DNA from: Psychroflexus sp. ALD_RP9
GTDB lineage: Bacteria > Bacteroidota > Bacteroidia > Flavobacteriales > Flavobacteriaceae
Reading direction: 5' to 3'
Assembly (NCBI RefSeq): GCF_017311165.1
Contig: NZ_CP062973.1
Location: 372,001-436,000, forward strand
Length of the DNA stretch: 64,000 bases
In this document: positions 8,118 to 49,871 of the stretch, one piece after another
Numbering within the stretch: position 1 is the first letter of the stretch
Layout: each line of letters begins with the position of its first letter
Notes under the pieces: model-generated
What the model was told of the DNA's origin: nothing
Seen by the model: the letters and a program-made list of their open reading frames with translations, nothing else
Database searches by the model: none
Translations under genes and position numbers: made by a program

Positions 8118-8537
8118 TTAAGCTTGTTGCTTTAAAAGGTCTCGAATTTCTGCAAGAAGTTCAATGTTTTTAGGCGTTGATTCTTTTGTATTCTTAACAT
8201 CTTCAGCTTTTGTCCTAAGCCTATTAAAAAAACGTATAACCAAGAAAATCGTGAAACCAACAATTATAAAGTCTAATATAATTTGCAAAAAACTACCGTA
8301 TTCTATAGCCACAGCCTCTGTAACTTCACCATTTTCTAAAACCTTTTTCGGTTGTAATATAATCTGATAACTAGAAAAATTCATTTTTCCTGTTATGTAA
8401 ATTAAAGGTGGCATGATTATATTATTTACTAATGAAGTGACCACTTTACTAAATGCTGTACCTATAATTATACCAACAGCCATATCAAACATATTGCCTT
8501 TTACAGCAAATTCTTTAAACTCTTTTAATACTTTCAT
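8118..8537 (-). CDS. mscL: Large-conductance mechanosensitive channel
   Basis: A 139-residue inner-membrane channel that opens under osmotic downshock. The N-terminal helix KEFKEFAVKGN leads into TM1 (MFDMAVGIIIGTAFSKVV), a periplasmic loop of about 40 residues, TM2 (LDFIIVGFTIFLVIRFFNRL) and a charged C-terminal helix, exactly the MscL plan. A TTG at 8543 is possible but the ATG at 8537 gives the standard start. It is transcribed alone and converges with rsmD. Confidence 0.95.
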   Translation of the reverse strand: MKVLKEFKEFAVKGNMFDMAVGIIIGTAFSKVVTSLVNNIIMPPLIYITGKMNFSSYQIILQPKKVLENGEVTEAVAIEYGSFLQIILDFIIVGFTIFLVIRFFNRLRTKAEDVKNTKESTPKNIELLAEIRDLLKQQA

Positions 8538-8641
8538 AGTCAATTTTTTAAAAATATTTGTTTTATAAAAATAAATAGGAATTAAGCAAATAGAGTGATG
8601 GAATCAGTATAATTTGGACATCAACCAAATTAGATATAAAA

Positions 8642-8673
8642 AAGCGCCAAAATTAATCATAATTTTGGCGCTT
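8642..8673 (-). terminator. Intrinsic terminator after the acyltransferase gene
   Basis: A perfect 13-base stem (8642-8654 with 8661-8673, core GCGCCAAAATT) closes on a 6-base loop. On the minus strand it is followed by six T residues. It lies 24 bases beyond the stop of the gene at 8697-9953 and should end that transcript. Confidence 0.85.
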
Positions 8674-8696
8674 ATCATTTATAATTAGATGTAAAA

Positions 8697-9953
8697 TTAA
8701 CCTTTCTGCTTCATCAAAGCATCAGATAATTTTTTATAAGTACCATTTTCGAGACGCTCTCTTATCGCTGAAAATGCTTTTAAAGTTAAGTCAATATCCT
8801 CCATTGTGTGTGTTGCTGTTGGTATCATTCTAAGAAGGATTAATCCTTTAGGAATCACTGGATAAACAACTATTGAACAGAAAATACCATGATTTTCTCG
8901 TAAATCTTTAACAAGAGCCATCGCTTCTGGAATGCTTCCTTTTAGATAAACAGGTGTTACACAACTTGTTGTTGTACCTATATCAAACCCATTTTCTTTC
9001 AAGCCAGATTGAAGTGCATTAACATTTTCCCATAGTTTATTCTTTAACTCAGGCATTGTTCTAAGCATTTCAAGACGTTTAAGTGCACCTTCAACTAAAG
9101 TCATTTGTAAAGACTTAGCGAACATTTGTGAACGAAGGTTATACTTAAGGTAATCAATAATTTCTTGATCGCCTGCGATAAAAGCGCCTGTACTAGCTAA
9201 AGATTTTGCAAATGTTGCGAAATAAACATCAATTTCATCTTGAACGCCTTGCTCCTCGCCTGCACCAGCTCCTGTCTTTCCTAATGTTCCGAAACCGTGA
9301 GCATCATCTACTAATAATCTAAAATTGTATTTCTTTTTAAGTTCAACAATTTCTTTTAGTTTTCCTTGCTCACCACGCATACCAAATACACCTTCGGAAA
9401 TAAATAAAACGCCGCCACCTGTCTGTTCAGCTATTTTTTCAGCTCTTGCAAGGTTTAATTCGATACTGTCTAAGTCATTATGCTTATAGGTAAAGCGTTT
9501 ACCTAAATGCAATCTTACACCATCGATAATACAAGCATGGGCATCAACATCATAAACAATAACATCATCTTTACCAACTAAGGCATCGATTGTTGATAGT
9601 ATACCTTGGTAACCAAAATTTAAAACATATGCTGCTTCTTTATTGACAAAGTCAGCAAGTTCGTTTTGCAATTTCTCATGTAACTCTGTATGGCCGCTCA
9701 TCATTCTAGCGCCCATTGGGTATGCACTACCATATTTTTTTGCGGCTTCTGCATCAACCTTTCTAACTTCAGGATGGTTTGCTAAGCCTAAATAATCATT
9801 AATACTCCATGTAATCACGTCACGACCTTGAAACTTCATACGGTTACTGATTTGCCCTTCAAGTTTTGGAAAAACAAAATAACCTTCAGCTTGGTCTGCC
9901 CATTTTCCTAACGGACCTTTATCACGGTAAATTTTTGCAAATAAATCTTTCAT
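8697..9953 (-). CDS. Alpha-oxoamine synthase; probable cysteate acyltransferase (CapB/SulA type)
   Basis: A 418-residue PLP enzyme of the serine palmitoyltransferase/2-amino-3-ketobutyrate CoA ligase family. TWSINDYLGLANHPEV is the substrate-binding start, DAHACIIDG and VDDAHGFGTLG bind PLP, and FAKSLASTGAF holds the PLP lysine. These enzymes join an amino acid to an acyl thioester with loss of CO2. A cysteine-synthase-like gene lies 30 bases upstream in the same transcript. In Capnocytophaga and related gliding bacteria such a pair makes L-cysteate and condenses it with a fatty acyl group to start capnine (sulfonolipid) synthesis. I infer the same here; serine palmitoyltransferase (sphingolipid start) is the main alternative, and threonine-degrading Kbl is less likely because no tdh is present. 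Confidence 0.8.
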   Translation of the reverse strand: MKDLFAKIYRDKGPLGKWADQAEGYFVFPKLEGQISNRMKFQGRDVITWSINDYLGLANHPEVRKVDAEAAKKYGSAYPMGARMMSGHTELHEKLQNELADFVNKEAAYVLNFGYQGILSTIDALVGKDDVIVYDVDAHACIIDGVRLHLGKRFTYKHNDLDSIELNLARAEKIAEQTGGGVLFISEGVFGMRGEQGKLKEIVELKKKYNFRLLVDDAHGFGTLGKTGAGAGEEQGVQDEIDVYFATFAKSLASTGAFIAGDQEIIDYLKYNLRSQMFAKSLQMTLVEGALKRLEMLRTMPELKNKLWENVNALQSGLKENGFDIGTTTSCVTPVYLKGSIPEAMALVKDLRENHGIFCSIVVYPVIPKGLILLRMIPTATHTMEDIDLTLKAFSAIRERLENGTYKKLSDALMKQKG

Positions 9954-9983
9954 AATTGTAATACTAAAATTAGTAAACCCAGT

Positions 9984-11027
9984 TTAACTTACTTTAGTAA
10001 GCTTATCACCACTTACTTGATCTTGGTTTTCTCTTATAAAACCTTGAGACTTCATCCAAGCATCGCTGTAAATTTTACTCATATATCTTGAGCCATGATC
10101 TGGAAATATTATCACGACATGGCTATTTTCATTAAATTCTTCTTGTTTGGCAAGCTGCATAACGCCTTGTAATGCGGCGCCACTTGTATAACCAACAAAC
10201 ATACCTTCTGTTTTGGCTATATCTCTGGCCATAAAAGCGCTTTCTGCGTCAGTCACTTTTGTAAATTTATCGATAATATTAAAATCTGTAGCTGTCGGCA
10301 CTAAATTTTTGCCAAGACCTTCAATTTTATAAGGGTAAATTTCATTTTTATCTAAAACTCTGGTTTCATGAAATTTTTTGATTATCGAACCATAAGCATC
10401 AATCCCAAGTATCTTGATGTCAGGATTTTTTTCTTTTAAATAACGTGCTGATCCTGAAATTGTACCACCAGTACCACTACAAGCTACTAAATGGGTTATT
10501 TTACCTTGAGTTTGTTTCCAAATTTCTGGACCAGTTGATAAATAATGTGCATCAATATTTAAACTATTGAAATATTGATTGATGTAGATAGAGTTAGGCG
10601 TTTCAGAATGAAGACGTTTAGCAACTTCATAATAAGAGCGTGGATCTTCAGGAGCAACATTAGCTGGGCAAACATAAACTTCTGCACCCATTGTTTTGAG
10701 TAATGATATTTTATCTTTAGAAGATTTATCACTAACAGCTAATATACACTTATAACCTTTAACCACACATGCCATAGCTAAACTAAATCCTGTGTTTCCT
10801 GATGTGGTTTCAATGACTGTATCGCCTGGATTTAAACGACCTTCTTTTTCGGCTTTATCTAGAATATACAATGCTATTCTATCTTTAGCTGAATGTCCCG
10901 GATTTTGGGCTTCATATTTTACAAAAAAGTCTCCTTTTAAATGCTTTGTGATATTGTTAAGGCGCACTAATGGTGTACAACCTATCATTTCTAATACATT
11001 ATCATGAACATTCATTTCACCATGCAT
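9984..11027 (-). CDS. Cysteine-synthase-like PLP enzyme; probable cysteate synthase (CapA type)
   Basis: About 347 residues, fold type II PLP enzyme. GHSAKDRIA holds the PLP lysine, [14 protein letters not shown] is the substrate loop and [11 protein letters not shown] binds phosphate. It is clearly distinct from the ordinary cysteine synthase of this window (48984-49871): it has an N-terminal [15 protein letters not shown], a longer C-terminal tail and [18 protein letters not shown] instead of the usual CDRGDRYLS ending. It sits directly before an acyltransferase of the cysteate-acylating type, so use of sulfite to make L-cysteate is inferred. Starts at 11051, 11027 and 11015 are all ATG; 11027 is chosen as giving a usual N-terminus. 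Cystathionine beta-synthase-like activity is the alternative. Confidence 0.8.
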
Positions 11028-11081
11028 AAAACACCTATCTTTACCCTGCATATACTAAAACAATGGTTAAATTTCAATTGG

Positions 11082-11089
11082 CAAAAGTA
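11082..11089 (-). promoter_or_regulatory. -7 element for the putative sulfonolipid gene pair
   Basis: CAAAAGTA reads TACTTTTG on the minus strand, an exact TAnnTTTG match, with a CAA (TTG on minus) 23 bases further upstream at 11113-11115. It lies within the intergenic gap before oligopeptidase B ends and 30 to 55 bases before the possible starts. Confidence 0.45.
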
Positions 11090-11104
11090 CAATATTTTTT
11101 TGGA

Positions 11105-13156
11105 TTACTTGGCAATTCCAACTAAATCGAACAAAAACGCATATTCTTTAGCTAACTCTTTTAAAGCTTCAAATCTTCCTGAAGCACCACCATGACCAGT
11201 ATTCATATTTGTTTCAAAATATAGTTTATTTGAGTAATTAGACTGCAATCTAAGTTTTGCAACCCATTTTGCTGGCTCCCAATATTGTACCTGCGAATCA
11301 TAAAAACCTGTTGTAACCAACATGTTAGGGTAGCTATGATTATTAACATTATCATAAGGTGAATAAGATTTAATGTAATGATAATATTCAGACTGATTAG
11401 GATTACCCCATTCATCATATTCTCCAGTAGTTAACGGTATACTCTCATCTAACATAGTAGTAACAACATCAACAAAAGGCACGGCTGCAATTACGCCATG
11501 ATACAATTCTGGTCTTAAGTTAATAACCGCACCAATTAAAAGTCCGCCAGCCGAACCACCCATCGCAAAAAGCTGTTCTGGTTTGGTATAATTATGTGTA
11601 ATAAGGTATTCGCTTACAGCAATAAAATCTGAAAAAGTATTGTTTTTATTTAACATTTTACCTGCTTCATACCAAGGTCTACCAAGATATTCTCCACCGC
11701 GTACATGAGCAATTACAAAGACAAATCCTCTGTCAAGCAAACTTAATCTTGTTGTTGAGAAATAAGGATCTACAGTATGACCATAACTACCGTAACCGTA
11801 TTGAAGTAATGGGTTTTGACCGTTGCGCTTTATGCCTTTTTTATAGACGATCGACATCGGAATTCGTGTACCATCTTGAGCAATTGCCCATTGGCGCTCT
11901 TCTATGTAATTAGAAGAATCAAAAGAATCGTCTAAAACCGCTTGTTGCTTCATTTTAACTTCTGTCTTTGTAGACAAATTATAATCGAAAACACTCGTTG
12001 GTGTGATTAACGAGCTAAATACATACCTAAAAGTATCGGTATTAAAATCAGGATTAGTTGAAGTTCCTATCGTGTATGTTTCACTCGAAATTGGTATAAA
12101 AAAGTCTTCATTAAAATCCCATGACATCACGCGCAAACGAGACAAGCCATTAAATCGCTCAGTAACAACAAAGTAATTTTTAAAAATTTCAACATCTTCA
12201 AGCAAAATATCTTCCCGATGTTTAATAACGTCATCCCAATGAATACTAGAAGTTTCTTCAATTTTAGTACGCATTAGTTTAAAATTCTGCGCATCGCCTT
12301 TATTTGTCAAAATGTAAAAATAATCTTCATAATGCATTATACTATATTCAAGTTGCGGTTGACGTTCCTGAAAAACTTGAAATTGAGCATCAGGTGTATT
12401 TGCGTTGATAAAACGATACTCGTCTTGTAATGTGCTTGACGAGCCTATGATAATAAATTGTTTTGATTTTGACTTATAAACAAAGCAATTGTAAGTTTCG
12501 TCATCTTCTTGATATACCAATTGGTCTTGACTCACGTCGGTTCCTAAAACATGTTTATAGATTTGATAAGACCTTAAGGTTTGTGGATCTTTTCGAGTGT
12601 AAAATAGGGTTTTATTATCATTAGCCCAGCAAGAGCTTCCGGTTGTTTTTTCAATTTTAGTAGGAAGAATTTCACCAGTTTTTAAATTTTTAACTTGAAT
12701 AGTATATTCTCTTCGACTAACATTGTCTACTCCAAAGGCTGCCATAGAATTATCAGGAGAAATAGCGATACCGCTCAATTTATAATAATCATGAGCTTCA
12801 GCCATTTTGTTAACATCAAATAAAAGCTCTTCTTTTGCTTCTAAAGATTGAAATTTTCTGATGTAAATAGGATAATCTTTTCCAGTTTCAAACTTTGCCT
12901 GATACCAATATTCATTTAAAAAGTAAGGAACAGATTCATCATCTTCTTTTATACGTGACTTCATTTCAGCAAACAAGTCATCTGTAAAGCGGTTTAAGTG
13001 TTTGGTTTCTTCTTTGTAATAATTGTTTTCAGCTTCTAAATAAGCTTTAACTTCCGGATTATCACGTTCATTAAGCCAATAAAATTCGTCTATTCTTTCA
13101 TCATTATGTTTTATTAACTTCTTAGGTATTTGTTTTGCTTTTGGTGGTGTATTCAA
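11105..13156 (-). CDS. ptrB: Oligopeptidase B (prolyl oligopeptidase family S9A)
   Basis: A 683-residue serine peptidase that cuts small peptides after basic residues. The N-terminal half is the seven-bladed propeller (starting RIDEFYWLNERDNPEVKAYL). The catalytic alpha/beta-hydrolase part carries GGSAGGLLIGAV (nucleophile Ser), VTTGFYDSQVQYWEPAKW (Asp region) and NTGHGGASGRFE (His). No signal peptide, so it is cytosolic. The start codon appears to be TTG at 13156, giving MNTPPKAKQIPKKL; no ATG lies nearby. A TAnnTTTG element sits 13 bases upstream. Confidence 0.92.
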   Translation of the reverse strand: MNTPPKAKQIPKKLIKHNDERIDEFYWLNERDNPEVKAYLEAENNYYKEETKHLNRFTDDLFAEMKSRIKEDDESVPYFLNEYWYQAKFETGKDYPIYIRKFQSLEAKEELLFDVNKMAEAHDYYKLSGIAISPDNSMAAFGVDNVSRREYTIQVKNLKTGEILPTKIEKTTGSSCWANDNKTLFYTRKDPQTLRSYQIYKHVLGTDVSQDQLVYQEDDETYNCFVYKSKSKQFIIIGSSSTLQDEYRFINANTPDAQFQVFQERQPQLEYSIMHYEDYFYILTNKGDAQNFKLMRTKIEETSSIHWDDVIKHREDILLEDVEIFKNYFVVTERFNGLSRLRVMSWDFNEDFFIPISSETYTIGTSTNPDFNTDTFRYVFSSLITPTSVFDYNLSTKTEVKMKQQAVLDDSFDSSNYIEERQWAIAQDGTRIPMSIVYKKGIKRNGQNPLLQYGYGSYGHTVDPYFSTTRLSLLDRGFVFVIAHVRGGEYLGRPWYEAGKMLNKNNTFSDFIAVSEYLITHNYTKPEQLFAMGGSAGGLLIGAVINLRPELYHGVIAAVPFVDVVTTMLDESIPLTTGEYDEWGNPNQSEYYHYIKSYSPYDNVNNHSYPNMLVTTGFYDSQVQYWEPAKWVAKLRLQSNYSNKLYFETNMNTGHGGASGRFEALKELAKEYAFLFDLVGIAK

Positions 13157-13304: not shown

Positions 13305-13622
13305 ATGTTTGGAGATATGATGGGCATGATGGGAAAACTTAAAGAAACCCAAGCTAAGGTTGAAGAAACCAAAAAACGCTTAGATAGCGTTAGTATTTCA
13401 GAGCAATCTAATGATGCACTTCTTAAAGTTATCATTACCGCCAATCGTGAAATTAAAACGATTGAGATTGATGATGAATTGCTTAAAGATAAAGAGCAGC
13501 TTGAAGATTATTTGATTATAACTTTAAATCGTGCCATTAAAAAGGCAACCGAAGTTAATGAAGCCGAAATTTCTGCTGTAGCAAAAGATGGCCTTCCTGA
13601 TATTCCTGGACTAACGAGCTAG
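13305..13622 (+). CDS. ybaB: YbaB/EbfC family nucleoid-associated protein
   Basis: A 105-residue DNA-binding protein. The methionine-rich start [16 protein letters not shown] leads into a coiled helix, and the central [19 protein letters not shown] strands match the YbaB sheet. It forms dimers that bind DNA and help shape the nucleoid. It is transcribed alone here, not next to dnaX or recR as in many bacteria. Its stop codon overlaps the stop region of the DUF721 gene by 4 bases. Confidence 0.9.
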
Positions 13623-48960: not shown

Positions 48961-48985
48961 AAAACCCTGAAAATTTCAGGGTTTT
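48961..48985. terminator. Bidirectional terminator between pepD and cysM
   Basis: AAAACCCTG (48961-48969) pairs with CAGGGTTTT (48977-48985) across an A/T loop whose bases can extend the stem. T residues flank it on both strands. It serves the convergent pepD and cysM genes; its right arm ends at the cysM stop codon. Confidence 0.8.
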
Positions 48986-49871
48986 AATATTTAAATAAAG
49001 GTGAAGATAGATAGCGGTCACCGCGATCGCAAACAATACTTACCACAACACCTTCGTCGAGCTGCTCACATAATTTTACAGCTGCAGTTGCAGCGCCACC
49101 ACTACTCATTCCAGAAAAAATTCCCTCATGAGCTGCTAAGTATCTAGCCATATCGGTTGCCTCTTTTTCGTTAACTTCAATAACTTGATCAACTTTATTT
49201 GAATTGAAAATTTTAGGTAAATATGCTTTAGGCCATTTTCTAATTCCAGGAATTTTAGCACCATCTTCAGGTTGAACTCCAATAATTTTAATAGAAGGAT
49301 TTTGCTCTTTTAAAAAGGTTGATGTTCCCATAATGGTGCCCGTTGTTCCCATAGAAGAAACAAAATGCGTGACTTTATGTTCTGTAGCTTTCCATATTTC
49401 TGGACCTGTTGTTTTGTAATGTGCCTTCCAATTATCATCATTAGCAAATTGGTTAAAACTGTAATAATCTCCAGATTTCATCTTACTTTCAACATAATCT
49501 CGTGAGCCGATAATACCTTCTTCAGCACTTGTTAAAGTTACTTTTGCACCATAAGCACGCATGGTTTTGACGCGTTCTTCGGTGGCATTTTCAGGCATGA
49601 CCAACTCTAAATTTAAACCGAAAACACTTGCGATCATAGCTAAGGCAATGCCGGTGTTGCCACTGGTAGGCTCAATTAAACGTGAATTTGTGATAATCTC
49701 ACCTCGTTTTAAAGCCTCATTAATCATATTAAATGCTGCACGATCTTTTACACTTCCGCCAGGGTTATGACCTTCCAGCTTAAATAAGAGTTTAACCTTA
49801 GGATTTTTAATTAATGTTTTAGCTTCAACTAGTGGCGTATTTCCTACTAAATCAATTATACTTTTATTCAT
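48984..49871 (-). CDS. cysM: Cysteine synthase
   Basis: A 295-residue PLP enzyme that makes cysteine from O-acetylserine and sulfide. GHNPGGSVKDRAAFNM holds the PLP Lys, EPTSGNTGIALAMIA the substrate loop, SSMGTTGTIMGTSTFL the phosphate site, and IFSGMSSGGAATAA the second substrate loop. The ending VCDRGDRYLSSPLFKY is that of CysM-type synthases. It lies 1 base after cysE in the same direction. Confidence 0.93.
   Translation of the reverse strand: MNKSIIDLVGNTPLVEAKTLIKNPKVKLLFKLEGHNPGGSVKDRAAFNMINEALKRGEIITNSRLIEPTSGNTGIALAMIASVFGLNLELVMPENATEERVKTMRAYGAKVTLTSAEEGIIGSRDYVESKMKSGDYYSFNQFANDDNWKAHYKTTGPEIWKATEHKVTHFVSSMGTTGTIMGTSTFLKEQNPSIKIIGVQPEDGAKIPGIRKWPKAYLPKIFNSNKVDQVIEVNEKEATDMARYLAAHEGIFSGMSSGGAATAAVKLCEQLDEGVVVSIVCDRGDRYLSSPLFKY

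Follow-up and report, generated by a model that had tools for sequence, protein, structure and literature searches.

Described relatives of the gene pair

The roles of the CapA, CapB and CapC enzymes are described in PMC10191378. The CapA-CapB enzymes of Capnocytophaga ochracea (Liu et al. 2022), as presented in the accessible parts of that paper and of PMC12927429, belong to the same two enzyme families as the gene pair reported here; the genus is different and the two systems are likened by family, not letter by letter. The consecutive UniProt numbers of the C. ochracea proteins (C7M8J5 and C7M8J6) suggest that their genes are adjacent. In Alistipes finegoldii, the acyltransferase SulA (PDB 7u7h) has 61% identity to the acyltransferase of our pair and shares with it all the active-site residues named in the available text of PMC9304779, including Lys281. 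According to the same text, Lys281 distinguishes SulA from serine palmitoyltransferase (SPT), the K281A change cuts activity by three orders of magnitude, and the acyl donor of the enzyme is acyl-ACP. Unlike the pair described here, Alistipes uses a homologue of archaeal cysteate synthase in place of CapA, as stated in the accessible part of PMC10191378. A solved cysteate-C-fatty acyltransferase (PDB 28eh/28fa) has 73% identity over 418 residues and does not differ at the sites examined. For Chryseobacterium gleum, the excerpts available of PMC11211663 report Cys and CFAT enzymes for the same first two steps, together with several active ketocapnine-type (KCR) reductases that are not adjacent to the pair; in the present genome the reductase is a candidate.

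Layout of the gene pair

The window, a stretch of 64,000 nucleotides of Psychroflexus sp. ALD_RP9 (NZ_CP062973.1, positions 372,001 to 436,000), carries the pair and its surroundings as follows.

8118-8543, minus strand: mscL, over its cut-off, the next same-strand gene past cfat
8642-8673, minus strand: intrinsic terminator between cfat and mscL
8697-9953, minus strand: cfat (capB/sulA), predicted cysteate fatty-acyl transferase (CFAT), 418 aa
9954-9983, minus strand: spacer of 30 bases between capA and cfat
9984-11051, minus strand: capA, predicted cysteate synthase, a PLP enzyme, 355 aa
11082-11089, minus strand: weak promoter box TACTTTTG of TAnnTTTG type, in the 53-base gap between the upstream gene and capA
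11105-13156, minus strand: oligopeptidase-B-like gene
13305-13622, plus strand: YbaB-like gene

Two frames spaced by 30 bases had been predicted, and both were found with exactly this spacing on one strand. The alignment to the NCBIfam model NF053679 starts at CapA residue 12, and the true start of CapA may therefore be M9 or M13. The two genes are probably co-transcribed. The terminator predicted after the pair is clear: a 14-pair stem followed by a T run was located at 8673-8642 on the minus strand, and the 81 bases around the stem have a folding energy of -22.2 kcal/mol, where shuffles average -9.3 (z -5.0) and none of 200 does as well. Of the promoter predicted before the pair, a single TAnnTTTG box was recovered, which we take to be a Bacteroidota-type promoter box. 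The assignment is weak, since a box of this type also arises in 89 of 2000 shuffles of the 53-base gap. The sigma-70 scan of 8500-11300 gave 5 matches compared to a shuffle mean of 11.8, with none in the gap before capA.

We consider it almost certain that the pair, judged from its sequence, encodes the committed first steps of a sulfonolipid pathway of capnine/sulfobacin type, as originally predicted, in a flavobacterium close to Psychroflexus. The identification is routine and of an already known kind; it is based on family membership (CapA over the cut-off of its equivalog model, CFAT in its clade with support 100/99), on active-site residues including the counterpart of SulA Lys281, on synteny, and on the lack of any SPT over cut-off in the genome.

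Identity of the acyltransferase

The frame at 8697-9953 matched PF00155, the family whose fold the alpha-oxoamine synthases share, in agreement with the family first assigned to it. The protein is 73.4% identical to 28eh and 60.9% to SulA (7u7h), compared to 34.7% for SPT (3a2b) and 28-30% for Kbl. Residues N52, H139, D216, H219, T247, K250, K280 and R375 all match SulA; K250 is the PLP lysine, K280 corresponds to SulA Lys281, and the other SulA counterparts, all identical, are N53, H140, D217, H220, T248, K251 and R376. At the Lys281 site, lysine was present in 80/80 nearest loci and in 20/20 further homologues, six of them from the window's family, whereas the residue is A in SPT 3a2b, N in three Kbl proteins and T in the BioF-like protein. 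In the tree of alpha-oxoamine synthases, the frame falls in a 31-row CFAT clade (100/99) that includes both solved CFAT/SulA enzymes, with SPT and Kbl outside; the SPT and BioF-like branches are long and the outgroup order is unsure, and reliance is placed on the CFAT clade. By family, 8697-9953 is thus predicted to be a CFAT that makes 3-ketocapnine.

One alternative is that this frame is a serine palmitoyltransferase or a glycine C-acetyltransferase (Kbl) and that the cell makes sphingolipids. The three enzymes share a fold, and by name the top NCBIfam match of 8697-9953 is the SPT model NF047600 with 306 bits. The cut-off of that model, however, is 640; the score to the Kbl model NF005394 (285 bits) likewise lies below its cut-off of 460, and the genome has its own Kbl elsewhere (L013, 678 bits, over cut-off). 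Identity is 35% to SPT as against 61-73% to SulA/CFAT, the discriminating site has a lysine and not the alanine of SPT, and the CFAT clade is separate from SPT at 100/99. The tree, proposed at the outset as a check on this frame, placed it with the solved SulA/CFAT enzymes and away from SPT and Kbl, leaving the prediction unrefuted. An SPT or Kbl identity was rejected on the cut-offs, the Lys281 site and the tree, and we regard the sphingolipid alternative as exceedingly improbable.

Identity of the cysteate synthase

The cysteine-synthase-like family assigned to 9984-11051 was borne out by a match to PF00291, the fold family of cysteine synthases. The protein scored 634 bits to the cysteate synthase equivalog NF053679 (cut-off 600), a model to which CysM and the paralogue L018 of the same genome scored 206 and 458 bits. 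The nearest solved structure is PDB 9k2p (520 bits), named just 'Pyridoxal-5'-phosphate-dependent protein beta subunit', which was counted against the CapA identity. In a tree of 35 proteins, the frame joins 15 others, 9k2p included, in a 16-row CapA clade (support 100/99) apart from CysM and the CBS-like proteins; one more CapA-like row, G037, joins this clade at 86/99. On these family grounds, 9984-11051 is predicted to be CapA, forming cysteate from O-phosphoserine and sulfite.

An ordinary cysteine synthase or cystathionine beta-synthase (CBS) at this position would leave CFAT alone in the lipid pathway. The PALP fold, the CBS-like C-terminus and a score of 394 bits to the CBS model speak for it. 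That score is below the CBS cut-off of 510 while the CapA cut-off is exceeded, and the frame is below cut-off for the CysK and CysM models as well. CysM is a separate gene of the genome, a further separate gene, L018, groups with proteins bearing a CBS domain, and CapA is linked to CFAT in 79/80 nearest loci. A CysK or CBS identity was rejected on the cut-offs and the tree, and this alternative is considered very unlikely. The original prediction had also argued from a normal cysE-cysM pair in the window that a second cysteine synthase is not needed. This argument is reasonable but indirect, and the pair was recovered in part:

48984-49871: cysM, over its cut-off

For the adjoining CysE frame the top match is serine acetyltransferase, but the frame scores below the cut-offs of both models matched.

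The non-standard C-terminus, put forward earlier as a mark of CapA, reads as quoted but is not specific. The end is of DHGSRY type in 74/79 CapA loci, and the same pattern is carried by a CBS-like paralogue and, among the 13 relatives fetched that lie outside the CapA clade, by six (G103p, G053p, G107p, G029p, G012p and G037p). The C-terminus is therefore not diagnostic, and this weak argument should go; the identification of CapA rests on other grounds. The motif before the PLP lysine is likewise no clean separator of the groups and was rejected as a marker: it reads NPG[HQLN]S[ASTN]KDR for CapA (79 loci) and NPG[NHQ]S[VILMT]KDR for the 13 relatives. The paralogue is:

C1:465670-466656 (L018:1492-2478), minus strand: L018, second CapA-like protein, 328 aa

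Its C-terminus, FHDHGSRYVGKMYNDDWM, is nearly identical to the end quoted for CapA. L018 scored 458 bits to the CapA model and 411 to the CBS model, below both cut-offs, and lies in an 8-row clade outside CapA (99/95). Four members of this clade are 455-462 aa from stop to stop, and the three long members scanned (about 453 aa) have a CBS domain and score 481-499 bits against the cystathionine beta-synthase cut-off of 510. The domain scan found no CBS domain in L018, which is possibly a shortened cystathionine beta-synthase.

Conservation and distribution

The CFAT shares 94% identity with its P. curvus counterpart, and the same value was obtained for the sole same-genus genome in the sample. 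Synteny was analysed in the 80 best-matching loci, which are near relatives by construction, and contig ends explain some of the absences. In 79/80 of these loci a match to CapA precedes CFAT, the distance between the two being 30-510 bases. An oligopeptidase-like gene lies upstream of CapA in 77/80 and a YbaB-like gene is present in 65/80; a single locus, L054, is without CapA, oligopeptidase and YbaB. Neither mscL nor rsmD, which lie on the other side of the pair, was found in any of the 80 loci, and there is no conserved context downstream of cfat in this set. CapA is less conserved than the linked CFAT (65-76% against 80-94% identity, best segments of the same loci).

Among the 118 genomes of the phylum sample, CFAT was matched in 42 (E <= 1e-90), including all 11 of the window's family. 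CapA exceeded its cut-off in 11/118; these are precisely the sampled members of the window's family, and each is CFAT-positive. The two genes are neighbours in 5/11 family genomes (G000, G053, G029, G103 and G107) and apart in 6/11, a split that speaks against the sulfonolipid reading of the pair. In three genomes outside the family (G012, G095 and G037), a sub-threshold CapA match (508-548 bits) also adjoins CFAT. The remaining CFAT-positive genomes have no CapA match or one of at most 492 bits (E <= 1e-130), in line with the use of another cysteate synthase by Alistipes, as given in the accessible part of PMC10191378. The pair is common, an ordinary trait of the window's family and not special to the strain.

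Predicted pathway

CapA would convert O-phosphoserine and sulfite to L-cysteate, and CFAT would form 3-ketocapnine from cysteate and an acyl thioester, with release of CO2. A short-chain reductase encoded elsewhere, in the role of CapC/KCR, would then reduce 3-ketocapnine to capnine, and an N-acyltransferase would complete the lipid. These reactions, the reductase and the lipid are those that we infer for the Psychroflexus strain. The best candidate for the reductase is KdsR-like:

C1:308566-309372 (L143:5567-6373), plus strand: L025, short-chain reductase, candidate 3-ketocapnine reductase

The genome has 14 matches to PF00106 (short-chain dehydrogenase), and among the 10 that were scanned L025 is closest to KdsR. 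Its top NCBIfam match is 3-ketodihydrosphingosine reductase (KdsR) with 269 bits, below the cut-off of 400, a shortfall that also speaks against the reading. The unlinked position of L025 fits the reductases away from the pair reported in the available text of PMC11211663. By eye, L025 adjoins a frame resembling transaldolase.

The search of the 2.56 Mb genome gave no SPT above the cut-off, and ordinary sphingolipid synthesis is therefore not indicated; the other alpha-oxoamine synthases found are Kbl, which exceeds its cut-off, and a BioF-like protein, which falls short of it. GldJ is present (903 bits), which fits a gliding context, with the role of the lipid in gliding or signalling being putative. 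The lineage thus probably makes sulfonolipids, without sign of ordinary sphingolipid synthesis. No sulfonolipid from Psychroflexus was found in the literature searched, as far as its accessible text goes; the term 'sulfonolipid' in the available part of PMC13232883 stands for a sulfoquinovosyl lipid.

Supply of sulfite

The genome, a single contig of 2.56 Mb and 99.94% complete, gave no match to PF01077, the domain of sulfite and nitrite reductases. This domain is present in 11/14 control genomes and 8/11 family members. The genes for sulfate activation and reduction are:

C1:741003-744620 (L141:7004-10621), minus strand: same-strand run CysQ-CysC-CysD-CysN
C1:2447933-2448619 (L142:7934-8620), minus strand: CysH, APS/PAPS reductase, 207 bits against a cut-off of 154

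The CysH protein carries ECGLH and the CC...CxxC cysteines, which we take to be catalytic-residue motifs. Linkage of CysH to the pair was rejected: the contig carries the pair at 0.38 Mb but CysH at 2.45 Mb, and no sulfonolipid genes were recognised beside CysH. A gene of the cysteine dioxygenase family is another possible source of sulfite.

In the phylum sample (n=118, CysH at E <= 1e-20, CFAT background 42/118), 41 genomes have both CysH and PF01077, and 17 of them are CFAT-positive. CysH without PF01077 was found in 11 genomes, our own included, all over the CysH cut-off and all 11 CFAT-positive. PF01077 without CysH occurs in 13 genomes, none CFAT-positive, and neither in 53, of which 14 are CFAT-positive. 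Among CysH genomes, CFAT is thus present in 11/11 without PF01077 compared to 17/41 with it (Fisher p = 0.0004). The 11 genomes belong to four families, with five in one of them (f21), and the effective number is small; by genus the figures are 8/8 and 12/22 (p = 0.029), with g17 counted in the first group despite a PF01077 match in one of its two genomes.

Of 54 CysH places, 41 were fetched, and a tree of 38 rows was obtained after G003, G030 and G107 were dropped for lack of a match to our CysH. Our CysH lies in an 8-row clade (100/97) with those of genomes lacking PF01077, six such genomes in all, plus G064 and the second CysH of G092; G092 has its reductase on another contig, and the CysH of G064 is about 2 kb from its reductase. 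G046 and G049, also without PF01077, join just in a wider 11-row clade, together with G001, which is CFAT-negative and has PF01077. The second CysH of G108 is outside the clade of our CysH. The CysH proteins of G012, G095 and G111 group with the ordinary ones, and their genes adjoin frames that by eye resemble CysD and CysN. One common CysH type for all the genomes with CysH and without PF01077 was therefore rejected, as 8/11 are in the 11-row clade and 3 in the ordinary clade.

A tentative and rather doubtful reading of these data is that some Bacteroidota, Psychroflexus among them, carry sulfate assimilation no further than sulfite, which goes mainly to cysteate and sulfonolipid. The sulfite would be made by CysDN(C), joined in many of these bacteria by a distinct subfamily of CysH whose catalytic residues are intact; with no sulfite reductase after CysH, it would pass mainly into cysteate and the sulfonolipid, and the sulfur of cysteine would be taken up from outside in reduced form. 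Sulfate to sulfite to sulfonate would be the simplest account, with cysteate as the natural user. The 14 CFAT-positive genomes with neither CysH nor PF01077 count against it, and CysH is accordingly not needed for the sulfonolipid pathway. The tree rows of G108 and G001 weaken it. The CapA-like proteins of G026, G042, G061, G069 and G108, all of f21, also count against it in lying outside the CapA clade; of these five fetched genomes, G061 alone belongs to the five of f21 with CysH and without PF01077. A sulfite reductase of an unrecognised type in these genomes is a possible alternative, and the fact that PF01077 covers nitrite reductases as well also weighs against the reading.

If sulfite does end mainly in sulfonolipid, membrane sulfonate would be a main sink for the sulfate that the cell assimilates, and the source of the sulfonate sulfur of cysteate, as well as the reason for the orphan-looking CysH, would be explained. 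Such producers would be unable to grow with sulfate as their only source of sulfur and yet would label their membrane from sulfate. The interest of the pair would come mostly from this lead. The idea was not found in the literature searched, and it may still be published.

In two other Bacteroidota (G046 and G049; L148:5372-7027 and L150:4004-5622), CysH adjoins a sugar-nucleotide epimerase-like gene, an arrangement that allows another sulfonate as the sink. CysH beside such a gene may mark another sulfite/sulfonate sink. The CysH of L150 lies among frames resembling a polysaccharide cluster.
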